Source of the DNA: Cloacibacillus evryensis DSM 19522
GTDB lineage: Bacteria; Synergistota; Synergistia; Synergistales; Synergistaceae
DNA length: 64,000 nucleotides
Direction: 5' to 3'
Assembly (NCBI RefSeq): GCF_000585335.1
Contig: NZ_KK073872.1
Location: 502,001 to 566,000 of the forward strand
Position numbers and translations under genes: made by a program. A model generated the notes under the pieces. It was not told the origin of the DNA and did no database searches. It saw nothing but the letters and a program-made list of their open reading frames with translations. Below are positions 27,748 to 55,152 of this stretch, one piece after another. Every line of letters starts with the position of its first letter. Position 1 is the stretch's first letter.

Positions 27748-27833
27748 GGTAGGATGGCCGAGTGGTCAAAGGCAACAGACTGTAAATCTGTCGGCGAGAG
27801 CCTACGTTGGTTCAAATCCAACTCCTACCACCA
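27748..27833 (+). tRNA. tRNA-Tyr (GTA), copy 2
   Basis: Identical in all 86 positions to copy 1, including the encoded CCA. The two copies lie 2.8 kb apart with similar promoters, indicating a duplication. Confidence 0.97.
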
Positions 27834-27876
27834 TTTTTATGTAAAAATGCCCTTACCGCATTTAAGTTTGACCGAT

Positions 27877-27952
27877 GCCGACTTAGCTCAGTAGGTAGAG
27901 CACATCCATGGTAAGGATGGGGTCCCCGGTTCGAGTCCGGGAGTCGGCTCCA
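27877..27952 (+). tRNA. tRNA-Thr (GGT)
   Basis: A 76-nt tRNA with GCCGACT/AGTCGGC acceptor arms, anticodon GGT at 27910-27912 and encoded CCA. The integrase gene starts 194 bp downstream, so its 3' half is the probable prophage attachment site. Confidence 0.97.
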
Positions 27953-28145: not shown

Positions 28146-29402
28146 ATGCTTACAGAGCTGCAGGCAAGGAATGCGAAGGCCGAGAGCAAGGTTTACCGAC
28201 TTAAGGATGAAGCGGGGCTTTATTTGGAGGTCCGTCCTTCGGGTAAGAAGGTATGGCGGATGCGGTACTGGATTGCCGGGAGGGAACGGATTCTTACTTT
28301 TGGTGATTATCCGCTCTTCTCGCTGAAGGAGGCGCGTGACCGCCGGGATATCGCCAGGCGGATTATTGCCGACGGCGGAGATCCCGCCGAAAAGTGGGCG
28401 GAAGAGCGCGCCGCGGTTAAGGCTGCCGAGGAAGCCGCCAAGGATACGTTTGAGGCGGTTGCACTTGAATGGCTCGACATGCGGTTGTCTGAGAATCTTT
28501 CAGACAGGTATAAACATAAAACTGAGTGGCGCCTGCGAAAGTATATTCTGCCTTCAATCGGGAAAATCCGCTTTTCCGAGGTGTCTCCCCTCGATCTGCT
28601 GGGTATGTGCAAGGCGCTGGAGGCTCGCGGATTGGTGGAGACCGAGCATAGGCTTGTCGGTATTTGTAGTCAGATTTTTCGTTATGGGATTATTTGGCAG
28701 AAGAGGACGGATGATCCAACTTATTCTTTGCGCGGCGCGTTGATGTCGCCTACGGTGAGGCATTTTTCGAGCATTCAGGATAAGTCTCTTTTAGGCGAGT
28801 TTTATGTCGCCATAGAATCATGTACGGGATCAGAGATCATAAAGGCTGCCTTGCGGTTTTTGGTGTTGAATTTTCCACGCCCGGGCGAGCTGCGACATGC
28901 CGAGTGGAGCGAGTTCGATTTTGATACAAATATGTGGTCTGTCTCAGCGGAGAAGATGAAGATGAAACGACCCCATATGGTCCCGCTGGGAAGTCATTCT
29001 CTGGCGCTCCTGAAGGCGCTGCACCCCTTAACAGGACATGGCCGGTATGTTTTCCCGTCTCCACGAAGTGGTACAGGTTCTGTGCCTCTGAGCGACATGG
29101 CGCTTAATGTCGCGATGCGGGCGATGGGATATGAACAGGAAGATGTCAGCGCACACGGTTTTCGGCATACCGCATCAACGATGTTGAATGATTCTCTGCT
29201 GTGGTCGCCAGACGCCATCGAACGGCAGCTTGCGCACGTGGACGGGAATAAGGTGCGCGAGACGTATAACGCCGCCGAGTATCTTGAGGAGCGTAAGCGG
29301 ATGAAGCAGTGGTGGGAGGATTTTGTGATCGGCGAGGCCGAGGCCGCCAGGAAGAGGGCGGAGAAGAAGAAAAAAGAGAGGGAACAGAAGGGAGGAGATT
29401 AG
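28146..29402 (+). CDS. int: P4-type tyrosine recombinase (prophage integrase)
   Basis: The 418-residue protein starts with the DUF4102-type arm-binding domain (KAESKVYRLKDEAGLYLEV, ILTFGDYPLFSLKEAR), then a SAM-like core-binding domain and the catalytic domain: arginine in FPRPGELRHAEW, HGFRHTAS, and the tyrosine region in VRETYNAAEYLEERKRM. Such integrases insert into tRNA 3' ends, matching the adjacent tRNA-Thr. GGGAG precedes the ATG. Confidence 0.95.
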   Translation: MLTELQARNAKAESKVYRLKDEAGLYLEVRPSGKKVWRMRYWIAGRERILTFGDYPLFSLKEARDRRDIARRIIADGGDPAEKWAEERAAVKAAEEAAKDTFEAVALEWLDMRLSENLSDRYKHKTEWRLRKYILPSIGKIRFSEVSPLDLLGMCKALEARGLVETEHRLVGICSQIFRYGIIWQKRTDDPTYSLRGALMSPTVRHFSSIQDKSLLGEFYVAIESCTGSEIIKAALRFLVLNFPRPGELRHAEWSEFDFDTNMWSVSAEKMKMKRPHMVPLGSHSLALLKALHPLTGHGRYVFPSPRSGTGSVPLSDMALNVAMRAMGYEQEDVSAHGFRHTASTMLNDSLLWSPDAIERQLAHVDGNKVRETYNAAEYLEERKRMKQWWEDFVIGEAEAARKRAEKKKKEREQKGGD

Positions 29403-44473: not shown

Positions 44474-45103
44474 ATGCCAGAGGAGGTGAACCTTGTGAGG
44501 GGGAAAAAACTGACGCCGAAGCAGGCCCGCTTTGTCGAAGAGTACCTGGTTGATCTCAATGCCACCAATGCCGCTAAAAGAGCAGGTTACGCCGCGAAAA
44601 CCTCATATTCCATCGGACAGCGCCTGTTGAAAAATGTTGAAGTACAAAACGCTATCAACGTAGCGCAAAGACGGCGCTCGATCCGTACTGAAATTAGTCA
44701 GGACGCCGTGATTAAGGAGATTGCCAAGATTGCTTTTGGCGATCCGCGAGCTGTGATGAGTTGGGGGCCTGACGGGGTGAAGCTCAAGGACAGCAAAGAA
44801 ATCTCCGATGACGCAGCGGCATTTGTTGCGGAGGTATCCGAATCGACTACGGAGAGTGGTGGTAGTCTGCGGCTTAAAACGAACGACAAGCTCAAGGCGC
44901 TTGAATTACTGGGGAAGCATTTTGGCATGTTCAAGGAGCAACAGCCTGTCCAACAGAGTACAAATAACCTGATTTTCGCTGACTCAAATGCTCTGATTTA
45001 TCAGGCCGTGCTGGATACAGTGCGCGACACGGCCCGGGCTGTGCGCGAGGGGGCCGTTCTTAGTGGTGATCCCGTCCGAGAGGGCGATATAACGGAGGTA
45101 TGA
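44474..45103 (+). CDS. terS: Terminase small subunit
   Basis: 209 residues. The N-terminal HTH region (LTPKQARFVEEYLVDLNATN, AAKRAGYAAKTSYSIGQRLL) and FGDPRAVMSWG are typical of the Terminase_2 type. It recognises phage DNA and recruits the large subunit for packaging. A very strong GGAGGGGAGGGG lies before ATG 44474. Confidence 0.9.
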   Translation: MPEEVNLVRGKKLTPKQARFVEEYLVDLNATNAAKRAGYAAKTSYSIGQRLLKNVEVQNAINVAQRRRSIRTEISQDAVIKEIAKIAFGDPRAVMSWGPDGVKLKDSKEISDDAAAFVAEVSESTTESGGSLRLKTNDKLKALELLGKHFGMFKEQQPVQQSTNNLIFADSNALIYQAVLDTVRDTARAVREGAVLSGDPVREGDITEV

Positions 45104-45106
45104 ACA

Positions 45107-45493
45107 ATGAAGAGGTTGAGGGCGGTACCGACGACGGTTCGGTTTTTTAGGGATAAGGATAGACGCTGTGTCCGTGTCGATTTTAGAGGTCATGCGATTG
45201 CGGATGTCTCTACTAAATACGAGGAGGATGCGCTGCTAGACGGAGTGTGTGCCTGTGCCGGTGTTTCGCTGCTGAGCAGTTTTATGGAGATACTTGTCAT
45301 GTTAGGGGGCGCTGAACGGTATGAGGTGAGATCTTTCAACGACGGACCGGAGGAGGTTCCGGTGAAGTCTTTTAGGTGGGAGGCGGACGCGGAAGCTATG
45401 CAGATCCCTGTTGAAGCGCTTTACCGGACGGTACAGGCGTTGTCGGTAGAGTTCTATCCTTTTGTGCATGTCCAGGATGTTTTGGGCGTTTAG
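45107..45493 (+). CDS. Prp-like (YsxB family) cysteine protease, divergent
   Basis: 128 residues. RVDFRGHA (His29) and DGVCACAGVSLLSSFMEIL (Cys48) copy the two catalytic motifs of Prp, with about six extra residues between them compared with the canonical member at 50655-51032. The C-terminal VEFYPFVHVQDV also fits. It sits after terS. It may be a second protease or a regulator of the first; activity is uncertain. Confidence 0.6.
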   Translation: MKRLRAVPTTVRFFRDKDRRCVRVDFRGHAIADVSTKYEEDALLDGVCACAGVSLLSSFMEILVMLGGAERYEVRSFNDGPEEVPVKSFRWEADAEAMQIPVEALYRTVQALSVEFYPFVHVQDVLGV

Positions 45494-45523: not shown

Positions 45524-46027
45524 ATGTGTAAGTATGTAAAGAGACCGGTGGTAGTTGAGGCTGTCAAGTTTGAGGACAGCACAGAGTGTTTTGATAAGCT
45601 GCAGGCGCTGGGACTTGATCCTGTGCGCGTTAATTACGCCGATAAGGATAATCCGGTGATCAAGATCGATACGCTGGAAGGTGAAATGACAGGGCAAGTC
45701 GGCGATTACGTTATCCGCGGCGTGAACGGTGAATTTTACCCCTGCAAACCAGATATTTTTGAAAAGACGTATGCAAAAGAGGGCTCGTATCCTACGAAAC
45801 ATCTTTCTTTTGGGGCGGCATTTGATTACCTCAAAATCGGCAACGTGGATTACATGCGCCTTCCGCAGTGGAAAGAGGATGTGAAGATAAGAATCCAGCG
45901 CCCGGATGAAAACTCGAAAATGAGGGCGCCATATCTCTATGTTGAATCCCGTTTCGGGCGTGTGCCGTGGAAGGAAACGATGATCGAGCTGTTTTCGGAT
46001 GAATGGGAGGTCGGGTTTGATGAATAG
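45524..46027 (+). CDS. Fusion of a common phage N-terminal domain with a Tad2-like (DUF2829) domain
   Basis: 167 residues; GGAGGAGG at 45507-45514 sets ATG 45524. Residues 1-83 resemble the widespread phage domain with VGDYVIRGVNGEFYPCKPDI. Residues 93-165 match DUF2829: LSFGAAFDYLKIGN, MRLPQW, MRAPYLYVE and GRVPWKETMIELFSDEWEVG. Thoeris anti-defence protein Tad2 belongs to this family and sequesters the cyclic nucleotide signal of Thoeris. Anti-defence activity here is inferred. It lies oddly between terminase subunit genes. Confidence 0.72.
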   Translation: MCKYVKRPVVVEAVKFEDSTECFDKLQALGLDPVRVNYADKDNPVIKIDTLEGEMTGQVGDYVIRGVNGEFYPCKPDIFEKTYAKEGSYPTKHLSFGAAFDYLKIGNVDYMRLPQWKEDVKIRIQRPDENSKMRAPYLYVESRFGRVPWKETMIELFSDEWEVGFDE

Positions 46028-46232: not shown

Positions 46233-46266
46233 AAAAAGGTTCATTGAAGGCTAGGAGGTGTCCGCA

Positions 46267-48276
46267 TTGAATGATGTGTCTGATGTGGAGGCCGTCCGCC
46301 GGATGGCGGAGGATGAGACGCGGTGCGCATCATCGTTGGTGGCATTTCGGAAACAGTACCTGGCAGCACCCGATGATGTAGATGCGGCCCCATTTCATGA
46401 GGAGTGGAGCCGCCTTTTGTTGTATGGCCGCGAGCATGAGGCAATAGAAGGCTATCGTTCTTCGGCGAAGGATCAGTATGTTTTTCAGGCGTATATTATG
46501 TATTGCCTCAAGTATCCCACTTATGAACGGAGCTATATCGTCATTATCTGCGCCACGGCGGAGATGGCGGCGCGGAAGCTGTTGGCGATCACGCGCCGCT
46601 TCCAGGCCCCGGACTGTGCCTCGATGCGTGTTCATCTGGAGAAGGTCGTCGAGGATTCCGGCAAGGCTTTTCAGGCGCTGTATCGTGACGGCATGCAGGT
46701 CAGGGTTGAGGCGTTCGGCAAAGGCGGCGCTATTCGCGGCCTCGTCTGGGGGGCGAAGCGCCCGGATATTATCATCATCAATGATCCGCAGGATCTAGAA
46801 GACATGAACAGCCCGGCCACGATGGAGAAGGATTGGGATTGGTTCACATCGGACGTTATTTTCCTTGGGAACAGCACGCGGATTTTTCTCATCGGCAACA
46901 ATCTTGGTGCGCTCTGTATTATTGAGCGTGTCTTTCAGTTTGCCAGGCAGCTTAATTTCGACTGCCGCCGGTATCCCGTCCTGGACAAAAATGACCGCAG
47001 CACCTGGCCGCAGAAGGACCCCACGGAGAAGATGGTCGCCGAGCGGGAATCGTTCCGCGCTCTGGGTAAGATCGATTCCTGGATGCGCGAGAAGATGTGT
47101 CAGGTGATGGCGCCGGAGTCGAGGCCGTTGAAGCCGGAGCTGTACGGCTATTACGACCCGTTTCAGCTGGATTTGTCGGGCAGCGTTGTTAAGATTGTGC
47201 TGGACCCAGCGATCAGCGAAAAAAAGGATTCTGACGAGTCGGTTATCACGGCCTGCGCGATTCGTGACGACGGGCATAAGGATATTTTGGAGATGGACGT
47301 TGACCGGCGTAATCCGTATAAGATCGTGGACGCGCTTTTCCGCATGGTGGCGCGCTGGAATCCCGTAATGGTTGGCGTGGAGGCGATCGCCTATCAGGAG
47401 ATGTTGGCGCAGGAGATTGAGCGGCAGCAGATCAAGAGAGGTATATATTTTAACGTTGTGCGTGTGCGCGGTATGCGCGGCCGCGCGAAGACGTCGAAGG
47501 AGCAGAAGATCCGTATGCGCCTGCAGCCGCAGATGGCCGTGGGGGCGATTCGGCTGCCCTCCGGTGCTGGCTGGGTACCTAAGCTGCTGCAGCAGACACA
47601 GGAGTTCCCTTATGGTGCCCACGACGATATGTTGGATACGCTCGCCATGCTGGACGACGTGCGCGAGGATATTCTTGTGCCGAATTTCGACCAGGCCGCC
47701 TGTGTCTGCGGCGAGTTTCCGCTTCCAAAGAACTGGCCGTTCTGGTGCTCTATTGTGGCCGACGTCACGGGCGAGTGCGTGATGCTTTTCATGTCCTGTT
47801 CGCCGGAGGGCAGGCTTTTTATCACGGATCAGATTTTTATACGCGGCACCCCCGAGGCGTTGTACCGCCGTTATCTGGGGGTGATGGGATCTCGGCAGCC
47901 GTTGATGACGGTAGCGCCGGCGGTGATGTTCAAGGATACGCCGGTTTCCCGCGAGGTGTGGGCGGACAGTTACCGCGGCGCGGGGTTCAGGCTGTCGAGT
48001 GCGCCGGATGATTACGCGTCGATGTTGACGCATTTGAATCAGTCGTTCGCCGTCCCCTATGCCGGGTCGCCGCCGCATTTGCAGATTTTCCCGCGGTGCA
48101 AACGGCTGATTTGGGAGCTGTATCACGCGGTCTCCGGCGAGCAAAAGCAGCCCGACCGTAAGAGTATTCAGGCGCTTATGCTGCTGCTTTCGTGCGGACC
48201 GAAGTGGCGCGATATGGCCACGATGCCGCTGCGAAGCGGACGTGCGGTGAATTATCCGCCGCGCGACGTGCCGTAG
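46267..48276 (+). CDS. terL: Terminase large subunit
   Basis: 669 residues from TTG 46267 (AGGAGG at 46252-46257). The N-terminal part is an ATPase-like domain without a textbook Walker A (IVIICATAEMAARKLL) but with IIIINDPQDLED as Walker B-like strand. The nuclease domain shows VKIVLDPAISEKKDSDESV, GVEAIAY and HDDMLDTLAML. About 200 further C-terminal residues are unusual. It cuts and pumps DNA into proheads. Confidence 0.88.
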   Translation: MNDVSDVEAVRRMAEDETRCASSLVAFRKQYLAAPDDVDAAPFHEEWSRLLLYGREHEAIEGYRSSAKDQYVFQAYIMYCLKYPTYERSYIVIICATAEMAARKLLAITRRFQAPDCASMRVHLEKVVEDSGKAFQALYRDGMQVRVEAFGKGGAIRGLVWGAKRPDIIIINDPQDLEDMNSPATMEKDWDWFTSDVIFLGNSTRIFLIGNNLGALCIIERVFQFARQLNFDCRRYPVLDKNDRSTWPQKDPTEKMVAERESFRALGKIDSWMREKMCQVMAPESRPLKPELYGYYDPFQLDLSGSVVKIVLDPAISEKKDSDESVITACAIRDDGHKDILEMDVDRRNPYKIVDALFRMVARWNPVMVGVEAIAYQEMLAQEIERQQIKRGIYFNVVRVRGMRGRAKTSKEQKIRMRLQPQMAVGAIRLPSGAGWVPKLLQQTQEFPYGAHDDMLDTLAMLDDVREDILVPNFDQAACVCGEFPLPKNWPFWCSIVADVTGECVMLFMSCSPEGRLFITDQIFIRGTPEALYRRYLGVMGSRQPLMTVAPAVMFKDTPVSREVWADSYRGAGFRLSSAPDDYASMLTHLNQSFAVPYAGSPPHLQIFPRCKRLIWELYHAVSGEQKQPDRKSIQALMLLLSCGPKWRDMATMPLRSGRAVNYPPRDVP

Positions 48277-48293: not shown

Positions 48294-50519
48294 TTGGCTG
48301 TTTATGAGGATGGTACAGCGCCGCAACTGCCCGAAACGGGACAGTCGCAGCAGGACGGAGAGGGAAAGAAGCAGCGAGCGAATTTGAAGCAGATGGCGCT
48401 GCGGGTGGTGAAGAGCGATATTTCCACCGCGAAGTCCGCCAGTGACGCTGAGCAGTCGAAGCGCACGCGGTTTTATAGTCTTTACCGCGCCCGCGGAGAT
48501 GAGGGGAAGAGCGAGCGTTCGCACAGGAGCACGTTCACTTCGTCCGATGTGATGAATTGTATCGAGTGGATCATGCCGGATATGATGAAGGCTTTTGCCG
48601 GCAGTCGTAAGGTGATCGCGGTGGTTCCTCGCGGCGGCGAGGATGTAAAGAAGGCCGAGAAGATAGAGAAGCTACTTAACTGGCAGTTTATGCACCAGTG
48701 TCAGGGATTCCTTACTTTGCAGGCGTGGATCAAGGCGGCGCTGGTATACGGCATCGGCCACCTCAAGACGGGCTGGGAGGAGCAGTACGCGCGGAAGGGG
48801 TTCGCGCAGCCGGAGGTCATCGAGCCTGATTTTATGCAGATGGTAGAGGACGATTCTATTGAATCGCTCTCTTATCTGGACAGCTACGAGGTTCCGGTAC
48901 CGGCACAGCAGGCCCGTGGGATGCCAAACGCCGCCTCTTACGGCTTTTCACCGGCACAGGTGGAGATGATGCGCGTCTATACGGACGTGCAGGGAGAGCA
49001 GAAGATCAAGACTTATTCCGGCCCGAAGCTGGAGGTTATACCGCCCGAGGATTTTCTGATCGACCCCGAGGCGAAGGACGTGGACAGCGCCCGTTTCGTG
49101 ATTCACCGCGTCATGCGTACTATCTCTTATCTGCGTGAGAAGGAGCGCGACGGGATTTACGCGAATATCGACCGGGTGGTTCAGCTGTCGGGAGAGGGCA
49201 ATAACGGCGATTATGACAGCACGGAGGAGGTTGCGCGCCTGCAGGATTCTGCTTCTTATTCCGCTATGGGATATACGGACGACAACGAGGCGCAGCAGAT
49301 CGGCCGCCGTAAGGTGGATGTGTTCGAGTGGTGGGGAGAGTTGGATGTCGAGGGAGACGGGCGTACGGAGAGTTATCTTGTGGTGGTCTGTAAGAATACG
49401 ATCATCCGCATGGAGCGCAACCCGTATGCGCACGGCAAGTCTCCATTCGTCGATTTGCTGCCGATTCCCGATATTTTCAGTTACGAGGGTATCGGCTACG
49501 CGGAGCTGGCGGGGCCGCATCAGGAGGTCAAGACGGCTGTTATTAAGCAGCTGCTGGATAATGCGTCGTTCACGAATAATCAGATGTGGGAGGTGGATGA
49601 GAACGCCGGCGTCGATGTGGACGCGCTGGCGAATCCTTTTCCCGGCAAGGTGGTGTTCACGAACCGGCTCGGCGGCTTTAAGGCGATCACTCCGGCGCAG
49701 CTCGACGGTTCCTCTTACAACCTGATCGAGTTCTCGCAGGGGCAGCTTGAGCAGCTTACGGGGGTTACTCGCTATAACCAGGGGCTTGACGCTAATTCGC
49801 TGAATAAGACGGCGACCGGCATCTCCGCCATTATGGACGCCTCGTCGAAGCGCAAGGAGTTGATCGCGCGCACGATCGCCGAGACTGGTCTGCGGAAACT
49901 CTACCTGAAGATGCTGCAGCTCGACCAGCAGTTTATAGACCAGAATATCGTGATCCGACTGTTCAACGCGCCGCTGGAGATTTCTCCCGACGATCTGGCG
50001 GGGAATTTCGATGTCTCGGTGGATATCGGCAGCGCGGTGACGGACGACGATACGGAGGTGCGGCAGCTGTTCATGATGGTTCAGCAGTACCCGATGTTAC
50101 AGCAGCTTGGCATTATGCGGCCGGGAAATGTGTTCACGATCTGTAAGAAGGTCCTCGATATTTGGGGATATAAGAATACGGAGATGTATTTGTCCGACCC
50201 GCAGGAGACGGAAACGGCACGGCAGGCGATGGTCGCCATCGCCCGTCTTGCGCAGTTTGTGCAGGGTACGGGGCAGGTCCCGCCCCTGCAGGTGATTGCA
50301 GAGGTATTACAGGCGGCCTATGGGGCGCTTGCGAAAATAGCGGGGCCAGGCCCCGGAGGAGGAATCGTAAATGGAGAAGACGGAGCACCAGCGCAGGCTG
50401 GAGGCGGCGCGCCGGGACATGATGGTAAGTTTGTACCCTCTGTTGTCGCGTCTCGATATGGAGGTGCTGGTGAAGCTGGAGGCGGTTTACCAGCAGGAGG
50501 CTCACAACCAGCTTTATAA
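48294..50519 (+). CDS. Portal protein (podovirus-like)
   Basis: 741 residues from TTG 48294. Length and segments such as RSTFTSSDVMNCIEWIMPDM, GPHQEVKTAVIKQLLDN and TATGISAIMDASSKRKELIA fit large P22-type portals forming the dodecameric DNA channel. The final 50 residues are Gly/Ala/Pro-rich and overlap the next gene in another frame. Confidence 0.88.
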   Translation: MAVYEDGTAPQLPETGQSQQDGEGKKQRANLKQMALRVVKSDISTAKSASDAEQSKRTRFYSLYRARGDEGKSERSHRSTFTSSDVMNCIEWIMPDMMKAFAGSRKVIAVVPRGGEDVKKAEKIEKLLNWQFMHQCQGFLTLQAWIKAALVYGIGHLKTGWEEQYARKGFAQPEVIEPDFMQMVEDDSIESLSYLDSYEVPVPAQQARGMPNAASYGFSPAQVEMMRVYTDVQGEQKIKTYSGPKLEVIPPEDFLIDPEAKDVDSARFVIHRVMRTISYLREKERDGIYANIDRVVQLSGEGNNGDYDSTEEVARLQDSASYSAMGYTDDNEAQQIGRRKVDVFEWWGELDVEGDGRTESYLVVVCKNTIIRMERNPYAHGKSPFVDLLPIPDIFSYEGIGYAELAGPHQEVKTAVIKQLLDNASFTNNQMWEVDENAGVDVDALANPFPGKVVFTNRLGGFKAITPAQLDGSSYNLIEFSQGQLEQLTGVTRYNQGLDANSLNKTATGISAIMDASSKRKELIARTIAETGLRKLYLKMLQLDQQFIDQNIVIRLFNAPLEISPDDLAGNFDVSVDIGSAVTDDDTEVRQLFMMVQQYPMLQQLGIMRPGNVFTICKKVLDIWGYKNTEMYLSDPQETETARQAMVAIARLAQFVQGTGQVPPLQVIAEVLQAAYGALAKIAGPGPGGGIVNGEDGAPAQAGGGAPGHDGKFVPSVVASRYGGAGEAGGGLPAGGSQPAL

Positions 50520-50658
50520 TATCGCCATCGAGGACCGTGATGAGTTGGTCGGCGCGGTGGCGAAGATTAAGGGCGCGCGCGATTTTGTACAGTCTGTACG
50601 AAGGTGGAAGGGACAGGCTGAGGCGATCGTCTCTGCGGAGGAGCGAAACAACGTATGA
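50371..50658 (+). CDS. Small helical phage protein overlapping the portal gene
   Basis: 95 residues with long helices (HQRRLEAARRDMMVSLYPLL, LVGAVAKIKGARDFVQSVRR). GGAGGAGG precedes ATG 50371. It overlaps the portal 3' end by 149 bp in a different frame, and its stop overlaps the Prp start. Both frames appear genuine. Confidence 0.7.
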   Translation: MEKTEHQRRLEAARRDMMVSLYPLLSRLDMEVLVKLEAVYQQEAHNQLYNIAIEDRDELVGAVAKIKGARDFVQSVRRWKGQAEAIVSAEERNNV

Positions 50659-51032
50659 CGAAGGTGCGGGTCTTTTACGCGGGATCGCCGCCTGATGCGT
50701 GGGTGCAGGGTATCGAGTGCCGCGGCCATGCGGGCGGGACAAGGGACGGAGGAGCGGATTTAATCTGCGCCTCCGTTTCTTTGTGTATGGAGATGTTGGA
50801 GGAGGGGCTGCGCCATGTCGCTGACCCTGACGTTGTCACCTCGGTGTGGATATGTGAATCCAGGAATCCGGGGGGAAAGGCTATTCACTGGGAGGGGGAC
50901 GGCGCGGAGGTCCTGGCCGAGACGGTGGCCGCGACGCTGAGGAATATCGCCGCCGCCAACCCGCAGAATGTTTCTGTCGAAGATGTTTTTAATGGGGAGG
51001 ATAAAAAAGATGAGAAGGTTGCTGAATCTTAG
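50655..51032 (+). CDS. prp: Prp-family cysteine protease (prohead maturation protease)
   Basis: 125 residues. His25 in ECRGHAGG and Cys38 in GGADLICASVSL are the catalytic pair of Prp, the protease that in Firmicutes removes the N-terminal extension of ribosomal protein L27 and in phage 80alpha trims capsid and scaffold. Here it is encoded immediately before scaffold and capsid, whose N-termini both carry the L27-like motif LNLxFF. It is therefore very likely the phage's own maturation protease. Confidence 0.87.
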   Translation: MTKVRVFYAGSPPDAWVQGIECRGHAGGTRDGGADLICASVSLCMEMLEEGLRHVADPDVVTSVWICESRNPGGKAIHWEGDGAEVLAETVAATLRNIAAANPQNVSVEDVFNGEDKKDEKVAES

Positions 51033-52050
51033 GTTTTTTGACGGTACTGCCGGTTATGGTGAGATGTCGGACGAGGATTTCCAGAATGTGATGGACAGTG
51101 TTCGCTATGCCGGGTTTGATGAAGATGATCCCGCGCCTGTGCCTGTGCCGGCGGATGATGACGCGGGTAACGGCGATGATTCGGGGGGTGGCGAATCGAC
51201 GCCAGTGCAGAATGAACCGCCCGCCGCTCCGGCTGCGGAACCGGAGGTTCCCCCTGCGCAGCCGGAACCGCCGGCACAACAGAGCGGTATCCCCCCGCAT
51301 CTGGCGGATAGGTACGCGCCGATCATCGACGCTCTGGAAACGGACCCGTCTTTTCGTCAGGCGCTGGCCGATGCGATTGCCGCGCGGCGCAGCAGCGCAT
51401 ATGTTCCAGCCGCCGCGCCGCAGCCTGAGCAGGCGGCTAAACCGGCGGATGAGGATGTCGAGCCGGTATGCGGTGAGGACGAGCTGCTTGAGGATTTCGA
51501 GCGGCGTCACGGCGAATGGGAGCGGCGGCAGCAGGATAAGCGGGTGCGGGCGGAGGTCGAGAAGGCGCTTTCAGAGCGGCAGGAGGCCTTTCAACGGGAA
51601 CAGTTTATCCGCCGCTCACAAACGGTCAACGAACTGGTGCAGCAGGATACGGAGGCTCCGGCAGTGGCCAGTTTCATTCAGAAGAATCCTGCGCCGGCAA
51701 GGCTGATGCAGCTGATGAACGAAGATCCAGATGTATTTATGTACGTATATGACGGCATGAGGCAGATCGTCGGTAAGGGTAATTATTTTAAGGAGATTGC
51801 TATGAGACAGCGTGGCGTACCGACCACGCAACCCGCCGCTGCCCCCTCTCAGTCCGCTGCCCAGCCGTCCGCCGTCCGTTCTCCGGCTGCTGTGCCGGTA
51901 AGGACACACGTGAAGACGCCGCAGGCGCCATTCACGGAAAACGGAGGTGTAAGCAGTAAAGGAGGAGGTGGAGGCGGTGTAAGTTTTGCGGAGATGTCGG
52001 ATAAGGAGTTCGCAAGTTATATGAAGCGAGTGAGTATGCAGGGCCTGTAG
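51010..52050 (+). CDS. Capsid scaffolding protein
   Basis: 346 residues; GGGGAGG sets ATG 51010, overlapping prp by 23 bases. N-terminus MRRLLNLRFFDGTAG carries the Prp-type motif. An acidic Pro-rich region and a charged coiled-coil-like middle (FERRHGEWERRQQDKRVRAE) precede a Gly-rich segment and a basic C-terminal helix. Position before the capsid gene and composition are typical of scaffolds. Confidence 0.82.
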   Translation: MRRLLNLRFFDGTAGYGEMSDEDFQNVMDSVRYAGFDEDDPAPVPVPADDDAGNGDDSGGGESTPVQNEPPAAPAAEPEVPPAQPEPPAQQSGIPPHLADRYAPIIDALETDPSFRQALADAIAARRSSAYVPAAAPQPEQAAKPADEDVEPVCGEDELLEDFERRHGEWERRQQDKRVRAEVEKALSERQEAFQREQFIRRSQTVNELVQQDTEAPAVASFIQKNPAPARLMQLMNEDPDVFMYVYDGMRQIVGKGNYFKEIAMRQRGVPTTQPAAAPSQSAAQPSAVRSPAAVPVRTHVKTPQAPFTENGGVSSKGGGGGGVSFAEMSDKEFASYMKRVSMQGL

Positions 52051-52068
52051 GGCTGGAGGAGGAAAATA

Positions 52069-53112
52069 ATGTTTAATGTTGCAAGAAGGCTCAATCTGAG
52101 CTTTTTCGAGGTGAATACGCGGAATTTCCCGACGGAGATTAAGAATTTTTATGACCGCGTGGCGTTGACGACGGCGCTTCCGTTTCTGCCTTTCCGAAAG
52201 TGGGGACAGAAGCGGCCGCTGCCTAAGAACAAGGGCAAGGTGATATCTTTCCGCCGCTGGGGCGTGCTGGCTCCGGCCACTACGCCGCTGACAGAGGGTA
52301 TCACTCCGACCGGCAGCTCTCTGGACTATGAGACGATCACAGCCACGGTACAGCAGTACGGTGACTGGATACCTCTCACGGACCAGGTGCAGGATCTCGC
52401 CATTGACGCTGTGCTGACGCAGGTTGTCCAGCAGCTGGGCGAGCAGCAGGGCGAGACGCTGGCGATTTTAGCCCGCAACCAGATGGTCGCGGGGGTAAAT
52501 GTCAGCTACGCGAATAAGGTCACGTCGAGGTCGGAGGTGGTGGCGAGGGTCAGCGCCGACGACTATGACCGGATCATCCTGAAGCTGAAGATGAAGCTGG
52601 CCAAGCGCCACACCGAGATCATCATGCCTACGGTCAAGATAGAGACAAAACCTATTCGCGCCGCCTATATCGCCATCATCAGCCCTTACACGACTGTGGA
52701 GTTGGAGAGGCAGCTTGGTAACGGTTATGTCCCTGTAGCGAATTATGCCAGCGGCGTCGGCGTCATGGAGGGCGAGGTTGGCAGTTACAAGGAGATCCGC
52801 TTTATCGAAACGACGCACGCGATGGTTTACGAGGACGCCGGCGGCAATGTGGCGGACGGCTGTAAGAGCACCAGCGGTACAAAGACGGACGTCTATGCCG
52901 ACCTGATTTTTGGCAAGGAGGCCTATGGCGAGACGATGGTTGGTGGTAAAGACACTCACACCGTCATCATCAAAATGCATAAGGACGACGATACCAGCGA
53001 CACGAGCGACCCGCTGAATCAGCGCGGTACCGCGGGCTGGAAGGATTATTATGTCGCGAAGATTTTAAACGACGACTGGATCGTGCGCTATGAACACGCC
53101 GTCAAGTCGTAG
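52069..53112 (+). CDS. Major capsid protein, N4-gp56 family
   Basis: 347 residues with NKGKVISFRRWGVLAPATTP, LTEGITPTGSSLDYETITAT and VQQYGDWIPLTDQVQDLAID, as in the N4-gp56 capsid family. The N-terminus MFNVARRLNLSFFEVNTR contains LNLSFFE, matching the Prp cleavage motif seen in the scaffold. GGAGGAGG-like site precedes the ATG. Confidence 0.92.
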   Translation: MFNVARRLNLSFFEVNTRNFPTEIKNFYDRVALTTALPFLPFRKWGQKRPLPKNKGKVISFRRWGVLAPATTPLTEGITPTGSSLDYETITATVQQYGDWIPLTDQVQDLAIDAVLTQVVQQLGEQQGETLAILARNQMVAGVNVSYANKVTSRSEVVARVSADDYDRIILKLKMKLAKRHTEIIMPTVKIETKPIRAAYIAIISPYTTVELERQLGNGYVPVANYASGVGVMEGEVGSYKEIRFIETTHAMVYEDAGGNVADGCKSTSGTKTDVYADLIFGKEAYGETMVGGKDTHTVIIKMHKDDDTSDTSDPLNQRGTAGWKDYYVAKILNDDWIVRYEHAVKS

Positions 53113-53451: not shown

Positions 53452-54015
53452 ATGAGCGGATTTTTTGAAGCTGGGAGAAAGTATCGGGTACGTGTAACGG
53501 ATCTGCATTCGCCGGACGCGGTAACGTTTTCCGTCTCGCTTAACAATATGACTGGCAGATACTATACGAACGAAGATATTGAGATGCCCGGCGAGCTGAT
53601 CAACGTGCTGCTGGATGCGACGGTGCCCCACGAGATTATCCAGATGGAGCGCGGGTATCCGAAGATTGTCGGTGTTAAGCTGCGTCCGCGTTTTTCCGTT
53701 ACGCCGCTGGGGATGCCAGCGGTACCTACGGCGGACGCCACGCTTATCACTCCGGGGGTCTCTGCCGGTACCGGTGTGTTGGGGGGCGAGATGCCACTGC
53801 CACCGTCTGACGACGGCGTGCCACTGTTTGACCCGCACGAGGGCGCGGAGCCTGAACCGGAGGCCGAGGATGGCGCTGACAGGCAGGCGGAGCTGACGGG
53901 CATGAACAAGGGGGCTCTTATCGAGATCGCCCAGGGATATGGTCTCCGCTATACGGAGAAAAATAATAAGTCGGAGATGATTACCGGGATTCTCGCGGCT
54001 GAGGCGGGGGTCTAA
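53452..54015 (+). CDS. Phage head protein with C-terminal SAP/HeH-like domain
   Basis: 187 residues: a beta-rich N-terminal half (YRVRVTDLHSPDAVTFSVSL), an acidic Pro-rich linker and a C-terminal helix-extension-helix motif (MNKGALIEIAQGYGLRYTEK). The motif may bind DNA or protein at the head vertex. Confidence 0.65.
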   Translation: MSGFFEAGRKYRVRVTDLHSPDAVTFSVSLNNMTGRYYTNEDIEMPGELINVLLDATVPHEIIQMERGYPKIVGVKLRPRFSVTPLGMPAVPTADATLITPGVSAGTGVLGGEMPLPPSDDGVPLFDPHEGAEPEPEAEDGADRQAELTGMNKGALIEIAQGYGLRYTEKNNKSEMITGILAAEAGV

Positions 54016-54621: not shown

Positions 54622-55152
54622 ATGAAAGCACAGAAGATTTTAGCGCAAGTCCGGCTTTATGTTGGCGATGCGGCGAAGGCGAAGTTCGCAGACTGGCAGG
54701 CGGTCAGGGCAATAAACGACGCGCTACGGGTGATGGCCGAGGAGAACGCGAAGTCTGCCGGGCTGCTTTTCCGCCGTAACGCGGATGTCGTGCTGGAGGA
54801 GGAGAGCGGCGTTCTGCCGTCGGATTACCTGAATGTGATCCGCGGCTTCGGTGCGGAGGGGCGGGAGCTGTTGCAGGTACACGGTGACAGCCCCGGCGCG
54901 GGGGAGTATGCCATTCGCGGAGACGTTCTTTGTTCCGGCGAGCCGCAGGTAACTTTGTGGTATTTCTCGACGCCGCCGGCGGTGACGGACGGGGAATCGG
55001 AGATCGAGGTTCCGGAACGTTACGCTACGGCCATCGCGCGCGCGGCGGCCGCACTGCTTGCCGGCGGCGAGGGCGGGGCGGTCTCGGTAGTGAATTATTT
55101 CCTGCCGAATATGCGTCCAGCCGCGCCGCAGCGTAAGGAGGCGCAGTCCTGA
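54622..55152 (+). CDS. Head-tail adaptor-like protein
   Basis: 176 residues with the same helix-helix-beta layout (KILAQVRLYVGDAAKAKFAD, AVRAINDALRVMAEENAK). Probably a paralogue or stacked partner of the neighbouring adaptor proteins. The stop overlaps the next ATG. Confidence 0.6.
   Translation: MKAQKILAQVRLYVGDAAKAKFADWQAVRAINDALRVMAEENAKSAGLLFRRNADVVLEEESGVLPSDYLNVIRGFGAEGRELLQVHGDSPGAGEYAIRGDVLCSGEPQVTLWYFSTPPAVTDGESEIEVPERYATAIARAAAALLAGGEGGAVSVVNYFLPNMRPAAPQRKEAQS

Follow-up and report, generated by a model that had tools for sequence, protein, structure and literature searches.

Phage 80alpha has both its capsid protein (gp47) and its scaffold protein (gp46) trimmed by the Prp protease of its host (PMC5744158). 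The locus described here raises the question of whether a phage can mature its head with a Prp of its own, and which proteins such an enzyme would cleave in a bacterium that has no other Prp. The window, that is, the whole stretch of DNA analysed, is 64 kb (positions 502001-566000) of the 3.49-Mb, single-contig genome of Cloacibacillus evryensis DSM 19522.

A prophage head module with a Prp gene

The window contains a prophage that reaches from an integrase gene at 28146, beside tRNA-Tyr and tRNA-Thr, to past the window end. Its late genes are arranged in the order small terminase, Prp-like ORF, Tad2-like-domain protein, large terminase, SU10-type portal, 95-aa ORF, Prp, scaffold and capsid, and an SU10-type adaptor and tail proteins are encoded further on.

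28146-29402, forward strand: tyrosine integrase, left prophage end (PF00589), adjoining tRNA genes at 27748-27952 (ARAGORN)
44474-45103, forward strand: terminase small subunit (PF03592, 136.8 bits)
46303-48276, forward strand: terminase large subunit (phrog_38, 219 bits; alternative start at 46258)
48294-50519, forward strand: portal protein, SU10 family (PF23899, 529.6 bits)
50371-50658, forward strand: small ORF of 95 aa between portal and Prp, kept in the sibling prophage described below; its stop overlaps the Prp start
50655-51032, forward strand: phage Prp cysteine protease, 125 aa (PF04327, 44.7 bits; cut-off 27)
51010-52050, forward strand: putative scaffold, 346 aa, leader MRRLLNLRFF'DG (named from its position and composition; 59% identical to that of the sibling)
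52069-53112, forward strand: N4-gp56-type major capsid protein, 347 aa (PF25209, 41.2 bits; phrog_1357, 234 bits)
54622-55152, forward strand: SU10-type adaptor, a short-tail connector (PF24175, 40.9 bits)

With its SU10-type portal and adaptor, the phage is probably temperate and short-tailed. No tail tube was seen up to 17 kb beyond the window, and within the same 17 kb neither the right end of the prophage, which lies farther on, nor an attachment repeat was found. The Prp, scaffold and capsid genes are all intact and closely packed, each with a good ribosome-binding site; the Prp start overlaps the preceding stop, and the scaffold start overlaps the end of the Prp gene by 23 nt.

Three other products of this region were recorded. 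The C-terminal part of the protein encoded at 45524-46027 (forward strand) matches the Tad2 family of Thoeris anti-defence proteins (PF11195, 28.8 bits; cut-off 25), and the sibling prophage has a related protein, also beside the terminase. After the capsid gene, a small protein (53452-54015, forward strand), likewise kept in the sibling, ends in a Rho_N-like domain that scores just under the cut-off (21.2 bits). On the right side of the prophage, past the window (L293 7754-20000; G000:C1:570754 onwards), an open frame exceeding 4,000 residues contains methylase, SNF2 helicase and MuF C-terminal domains and matches the PHROG 'DarB-like antirestriction' with 1360 bits.

The placement of a Prp with His25 and Cys38 directly before the scaffold and an N4-type capsid, as given in a preliminary description of this DNA, is borne out by the open reading frames, the profile match and an intact predicted dyad. 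His25 (codon 50727-50729) and Cys38 (50766-50768) are 12 residues apart, the protein matches the pattern GHx...C[AS]xxS with H25, C38 and S42, and G24, H25 and C38 are invariant among the 54 phage Prps compared. An AF2 model (pLDDT 85.7) has bbabbab secondary structure, and a Foldseek search with it returned 14 significant PDB matches, all of them Prps or uncharacterised homologues, including 7KLD and 7JVS, two complexes of Staphylococcus aureus Prp. By profile, dyad and predicted fold, the product is a true member of the Prp family, and its proteolytic activity is predicted.

Scaffold and capsid begin with L27-like leaders

The scaffold ATG at 51010 stands behind GGGGAGG and opens the N-terminus MRRLLNLRFFDG, and the capsid ATG at 52069 stands behind GGAGGAGG and opens the N-terminus MFNVARRLNLSFFEV. 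The putative scaffold, an acidic protein rich in Ala, Pro and Gln, had no Pfam or PHROG match and no relation detectable by profile to the annotated scaffold of StenR_269; it is so named solely from its composition and its position between Prp and capsid. The AF2 model of the capsid protein finds its best matches among N4, DEV and B2 phage capsids. The leader lies within the first ~30 residues, which the model places outside the folded body and at low confidence (pLDDT 50-59).

51010-51039, forward strand: predicted cleavable scaffold leader, residues 1-10, with the predicted cut before Asp11
52069-52107, forward strand: predicted cleavable capsid leader, residues 1-13 (MFNVARRLNLSFF), with the predicted cut before Glu14

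A weight matrix for positions P6-P1, built solely from 39 bacterial L27 leaders (including those in Table 2 of PMC9405229), gave the scaffold and capsid N-termini 11.7 bits each, a score reached by 1 of 537 control N-termini from other phage ORFs. The remaining 39 of the 41 prophage ORFs scanned had no LNLxFF leader, and none exceeded 3.8 bits. On these scores, the putative leaders on scaffold and capsid are more than chance, and the LNLxFF motif that the preliminary description had read at both N-termini stands. Its assignment of the leaders to the L27 type holds for the LNLxFF core, but not for the full LNLQFF'A sequence: known Prp sites have Gln at P3 and Ala or Ser at P1' (PMC5744158, PMC9405229), whereas the window leaders have R (scaffold) or S (capsid) at P3 and D (scaffold) or E (capsid) at P1', so that the NLQxF'A pattern is absent from both. 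The predicted scissile bond FF'D/E is extrapolated from the known FF'A.

The host has neither a Prp of its own nor an extended L27

The claim that the phage carries its own Prp can be sharpened, as this protein is the sole PF04327 match over threshold in the entire host genome. In the host, rplU is directly followed by rpmA, and the prp gene usually found between them is absent. An L27 with an N-terminal extension, which the preliminary description had proposed to look for, was not found in the host genome; the host L27 is short and starts MAHKKGQ, without a leader, and is therefore not a possible target of the phage Prp. FlhB, the other Prp substrate proposed in PMC9405229, was not found in the host either. 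With Prp and a long L27 both missing from the host, the phage enzyme would serve the phage alone.

These observations bear on a reading in which the target of the phage Prp is a host protein, such as L27 or perhaps FlhB, and the head motifs are coincidental or relics. Bacterial Prps are indeed known for L27 (PMC9405229), yet here both candidate targets fail, and the motif occurs on exactly two prophage proteins and is kept in a diverged sibling, which makes such a role very improbable.

Within the order, Prp was present in 30/30 genomes with a long L27 (two of them counted from a long L27 frame), mostly adjoining L27, and chromosomal Prp was absent in 22/22 genomes with a short L27, the hosts of the window prophage and of its sibling included. 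Two of the short-L27 genomes, G000 and G020, carry phage Prp only. By these gene contents, the host is a case of paired loss of Prp and L27 leader, the enzyme surviving in prophages alone. In the Synergistota genomes surveyed (G000-G060), Prp and the L27 leader were apparently lost together several times in the order, and in all short-L27 genomes read, L27 begins directly at MAHKKG.

A diverged sibling prophage keeps the protease and both leaders

One sibling prophage, and one only, was found in Synergistaceae. It resides in a member of another genus of the family (G020), whose L27 is likewise short and which lacks its own Prp. The sibling keeps Prp, scaffold and capsid, the capsid being 82% identical to that of the window. 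Its leaders are MTRRINLSFF'DG on the scaffold and MDIKIKLVNLCFF'DV on the capsid. The scaffolds share NLxFF'DG and the capsids share NLxFF[ED]VN, whereas the residues that precede the capsid motif are unrelated (MFNVARR versus MDIKIKL). Differences between the two prophages concentrate at third codon positions (0.51, 0.54 and 0.48 for Prp, scaffold and capsid, respectively, versus 0.13-0.28).

The motif is short, and with one equally high score among the 537 controls the two LNLxFF strings might be taken for chance hydrophobic N-termini. We give this reading practically no weight: two such N-termini occur in one phage, on exactly the proteins that are trimmed in 80alpha, they are kept in the sibling, and scaffold and capsid leaders match each other across 61 clusters, as described below.

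The sibling also bears on the role of a second protease-like gene.

45107-45493, forward strand: second, divergent Prp-like protein, 128 aa, with GHA...GVCACAGVS (PF04327, 18.3 bits, below cut-off)

This protein, encoded between the small terminase and Tad2-like genes, is 27% identical to the scaffold-adjacent Prp and has a far longer His-Cys loop. It was found neither in the sibling prophage nor in the 60 relatives or the phage collection searched. As it retains a GHA...CAGVS dyad, it could share work with the scaffold-adjacent Prp, or it, or else a host protease, could process the head proteins while the scaffold-adjacent Prp is a relic. The latter is improbable: the sibling lacks the 45107-45493 gene and keeps the scaffold-adjacent Prp together with both leaders, the catalytic residues of the adjacent Prp are intact and its codon changes are of a selection-like kind, and the host has no other Prp over threshold.

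Prp and leader occur together in related phages

Related loci were collected by a capsid alignment search, which gave 80 loci from IMG/VR and another 80 from named genomes; fecal phage contigs and cultured phages were included as well. The window Prp or capsid, used as a single query against IMG/VR, gave no matches. Prp was encoded between portal and scaffold in 119 of the 158 loci with enough upstream sequence, most of these loci belonging to phages of Clostridia. The order portal-Prp-scaffold-capsid is, as judged from gene content, a recurrent cassette across ~160 related loci.

A capsid leader was detected in 100/119 loci with Prp and in 15/39 without (Fisher 1.3e-7). The former figure is a lower bound, as the regular expression overlooks variants such as LHTxMF'D and NLQLF'V and nearly all have a leader by eye; automated start and leader calls overlook some cases. 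Relatives with neither leader nor Prp comprise phages of Pseudoalteromonas, Stenotrophomonas and Pseudomonas, as well as contigs binned as Ignavibacteria, Syntrophobacterales, Spirochaetia and Thermaceae, and these last four genomes contained no Prp. For leader-bearing phages without Prp, the host genome contained a Prp in 12/12 cases tested, a figure that comes from MAG-level data, in which some Prps may belong to other prophages. Taken together, the leader occurs where some Prp is at hand. The comparison of homologous N-termini proposed in the preliminary description thus upheld its reading: homologues with a Prp next to them keep the leader, and it is missing from those relatives tested whose hosts lack any Prp.

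Several loci depart from the common form. L155, counted as Prp-less, has a very divergent Prp (NHSEKKDVCIMCS) ~1.4 kb before the capsid gene, below profile detection, and matched leaders on scaffold (PNFYSF'DGE) and capsid (PNFYTF'DGE). The variant LHTxMF'D was found in L005, L120 and L210, and both variants suggest further cleavage codes. In three loci, Prp and scaffold share one open frame (L007 3890-4978, L008 3940-4893 and L249); in L007 and L008, the cut motif DLQLF'A stands at the Prp-scaffold junction, so that a self-cleaving fusion is possible, and the L007 frame has an internal start with a ribosome-binding site.

Two predicted cleavage codes associated with the clamp loop

Capsid leaders fall into two classes. 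With Gln at P3, the P1' residue is A, S or G in 93 cases and otherwise in 1; with other P3 residues, it is D, E or N in 32 cases and otherwise in 3. Although scaffold and capsid share no homology, the two leaders of a phage belong to the same class in 76/83 cases, and agreement in P1' class persisted after clustering of Prps at 50% identity (38/42, or 38:4; p=1.7e-7). In a test that presupposes no motif, scaffold and capsid N-termini were compared by their best match over 7 residues; 0 of 20,000 permutations did as well as the true pairs from one phage (61 Prp clusters).

The class of the leader is associated with the clamp loop, which here means the stretch that separates the catalytic His from the catalytic Cys. 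It has 11 residues in 57/63 distinct Prps of the Q/A class and in 40/42 bacterial Prps beside L27, and a length other than 11 in 21/23 Prps of the acid class, which includes the window Prp (loop of 12; R..FF'D and S..FF'E) and that of the sibling (loop of 13). The association gave p=1e-12 for distinct sequences, 6e-7 after clustering at 50% and 0.013 at 40%. On the Prp tree, loop length and motif class each need about nine changes, and with weak branch support, the tree-corrected test retains just 1-2 supported independent pairs; clamp-loop length and motif class thus show a strong association, not proven coevolution. By these traits, the window leaders are of the second predicted specificity class, with a non-Gln P3, an acidic P1' and a Prp loop of non-canonical length.

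Capture of the Synergistaceae phage Prp from a host chromosome was considered and rejected: a quick tree placed it on the host side (98 SH-aLRT), and a tree with all phage Prps together was better (p-AU 0.78).

Comparison with known Prp systems

The window phage resembles 80alpha in that scaffold and capsid each have an L27-like leader, and in the Prp-family protease. Phage 80alpha differs in using the protease of its host, in its NLQ(F/H)F'A sites, in its long tail and in its capsid family, and its host also needs Prp for L27 (PMC5744158, PMC9405229), whereas the window host has no Prp of its own. Cleavage of either protein is dispensable in 80alpha, while an intact scaffold N-terminus is required, and the need for a phage protease is therefore not certain (PMC5744158).

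The same experiments favour a reading in which the leader serves as a signal for assembly or chaperone binding, which Prp only binds or cuts incidentally and whose removal has no role in maturation: 80alpha with uncleavable capsid and scaffold is viable, and its scaffold N-terminus is essential (PMC5744158). General chaperone binding would, however, predict neither the co-occurrence of leader and Prp across phages nor the shift of leader class with the Prp clamp loop, and we consider this reading possible but rather unlikely.

The short-tailed pneumococcal phage Cp-1 encodes a small protease that removes the N-terminus of the major head protein and belongs with Prp to MEROPS clan CR (Martin et al. 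1998, cited in PMC12445089). Cp-1 and the window phage, itself probably short-tailed, have in common a phage-encoded Prp-clan protease. The product of Cp-1 ORF13, with GHG...SCARVS and a weak PF04327 score below the cut-off (18.5 bits), is presumably the published protease. Cp-1 differs in the 48 residues removed, its phi29-type genome and a protease gene that is not beside the scaffold; in addition, neither its capsid (no LNLxFF) nor its annotated scaffold has a leader. The idea that Prp maturation extends beyond siphoviruses of Firmicutes agrees with the Prp apparently used by the phage studied here; the extension is not new in itself, given the experimental precedent of Cp-1.

Bacterial Prp (YsxB, MEROPS C108) shares with the window enzyme the fold, the dyad and an LNLxFF-type site at the substrate N-terminus. 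It differs in gene position, between rplU and rpmA rather than in a prophage head module, in leaders ending xQxF'A instead of having R/S at P3 and D/E at P1', and in the clamp loop, which has 11 residues in 40/42 bacterial Prps and 12 in the window Prp. N4-type heads with a gp56 capsid have the same capsid fold, but the N4-type relatives in our set (Pseudoalteromonas, Stenotrophomonas and Pseudomonas phages) lack both the leader and Prp.

A proposed maturation pathway and its implications

We hold it very probable, from the comparisons above, that the phage-encoded Prp matures the head by trimming the leaders of its own scaffold and capsid in a Prp-less host. Trimming of these two proteins by the phage Prp, as the preliminary description proposed, is the best-supported reading, given predicted leaders on just those two proteins and their co-occurrence with Prp. 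Prp would be translated just ahead of scaffold and capsid, where and when its substrates are made, and would bind the P6-P1 residues LNL[RS]FF at their N-termini. It would cut after the second Phe, before scaffold Asp11 and capsid Glu14, so that leaders of 10 and 13 residues, respectively, would be removed while the procapsid assembles or shortly afterwards. Cut site and clamp loop would have moved to the second specificity class, with a non-Gln P3, an acidic P1' and a loop other than 11. We infer the cleavage itself, its exact position and its timing from the sequence. The phage Prp may simply rid the inner head surface of leaders that would otherwise remain there, and an acidic P1' class would separate phage sites from L27 sites where hosts have them.

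A wider proposal is tentative and may well prove wrong: phage Prps and their matched leaders would form a large self-contained family of systems for site-specific head maturation, with at least two distinct cleavage codes set by the clamp loop (Q..F'A and non-Q..F'D/E), of which the bacterial Prp-L27 pair would be one domesticated or shared branch, and the Synergistaceae phage version would have outlived that of its host.

What appears new is the combination of L27-like leaders on both head proteins with a phage-borne Prp, together with its breadth and its occurrence in Prp-less hosts. In the literature searched, which covered few subscription papers and leaves novelty unproven, we found no report of a phage Prp with L27-like leaders on both head proteins, and neither a second code for Prp cleavage nor a Prp from phages of Synergistaceae was described there. 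This enzyme is likely the maturation protease of a widespread gut phage group of which that literature gave no description.

The locus separates Prp, by nature, from its essential ribosomal job: in a host with no other Prp and only a short L27, the enzyme has no apparent substrates besides two phage proteins. The reasons for which phages use Prp sites, and the importance of cutting them, can thus be tested with no lethal effect on the host. The second code points to a family of proteases that are small, sequence-specific and orthogonal to one another. Our findings also concern how the essential L27 leader arose; the protease that removes it is under study as an antibiotic target.
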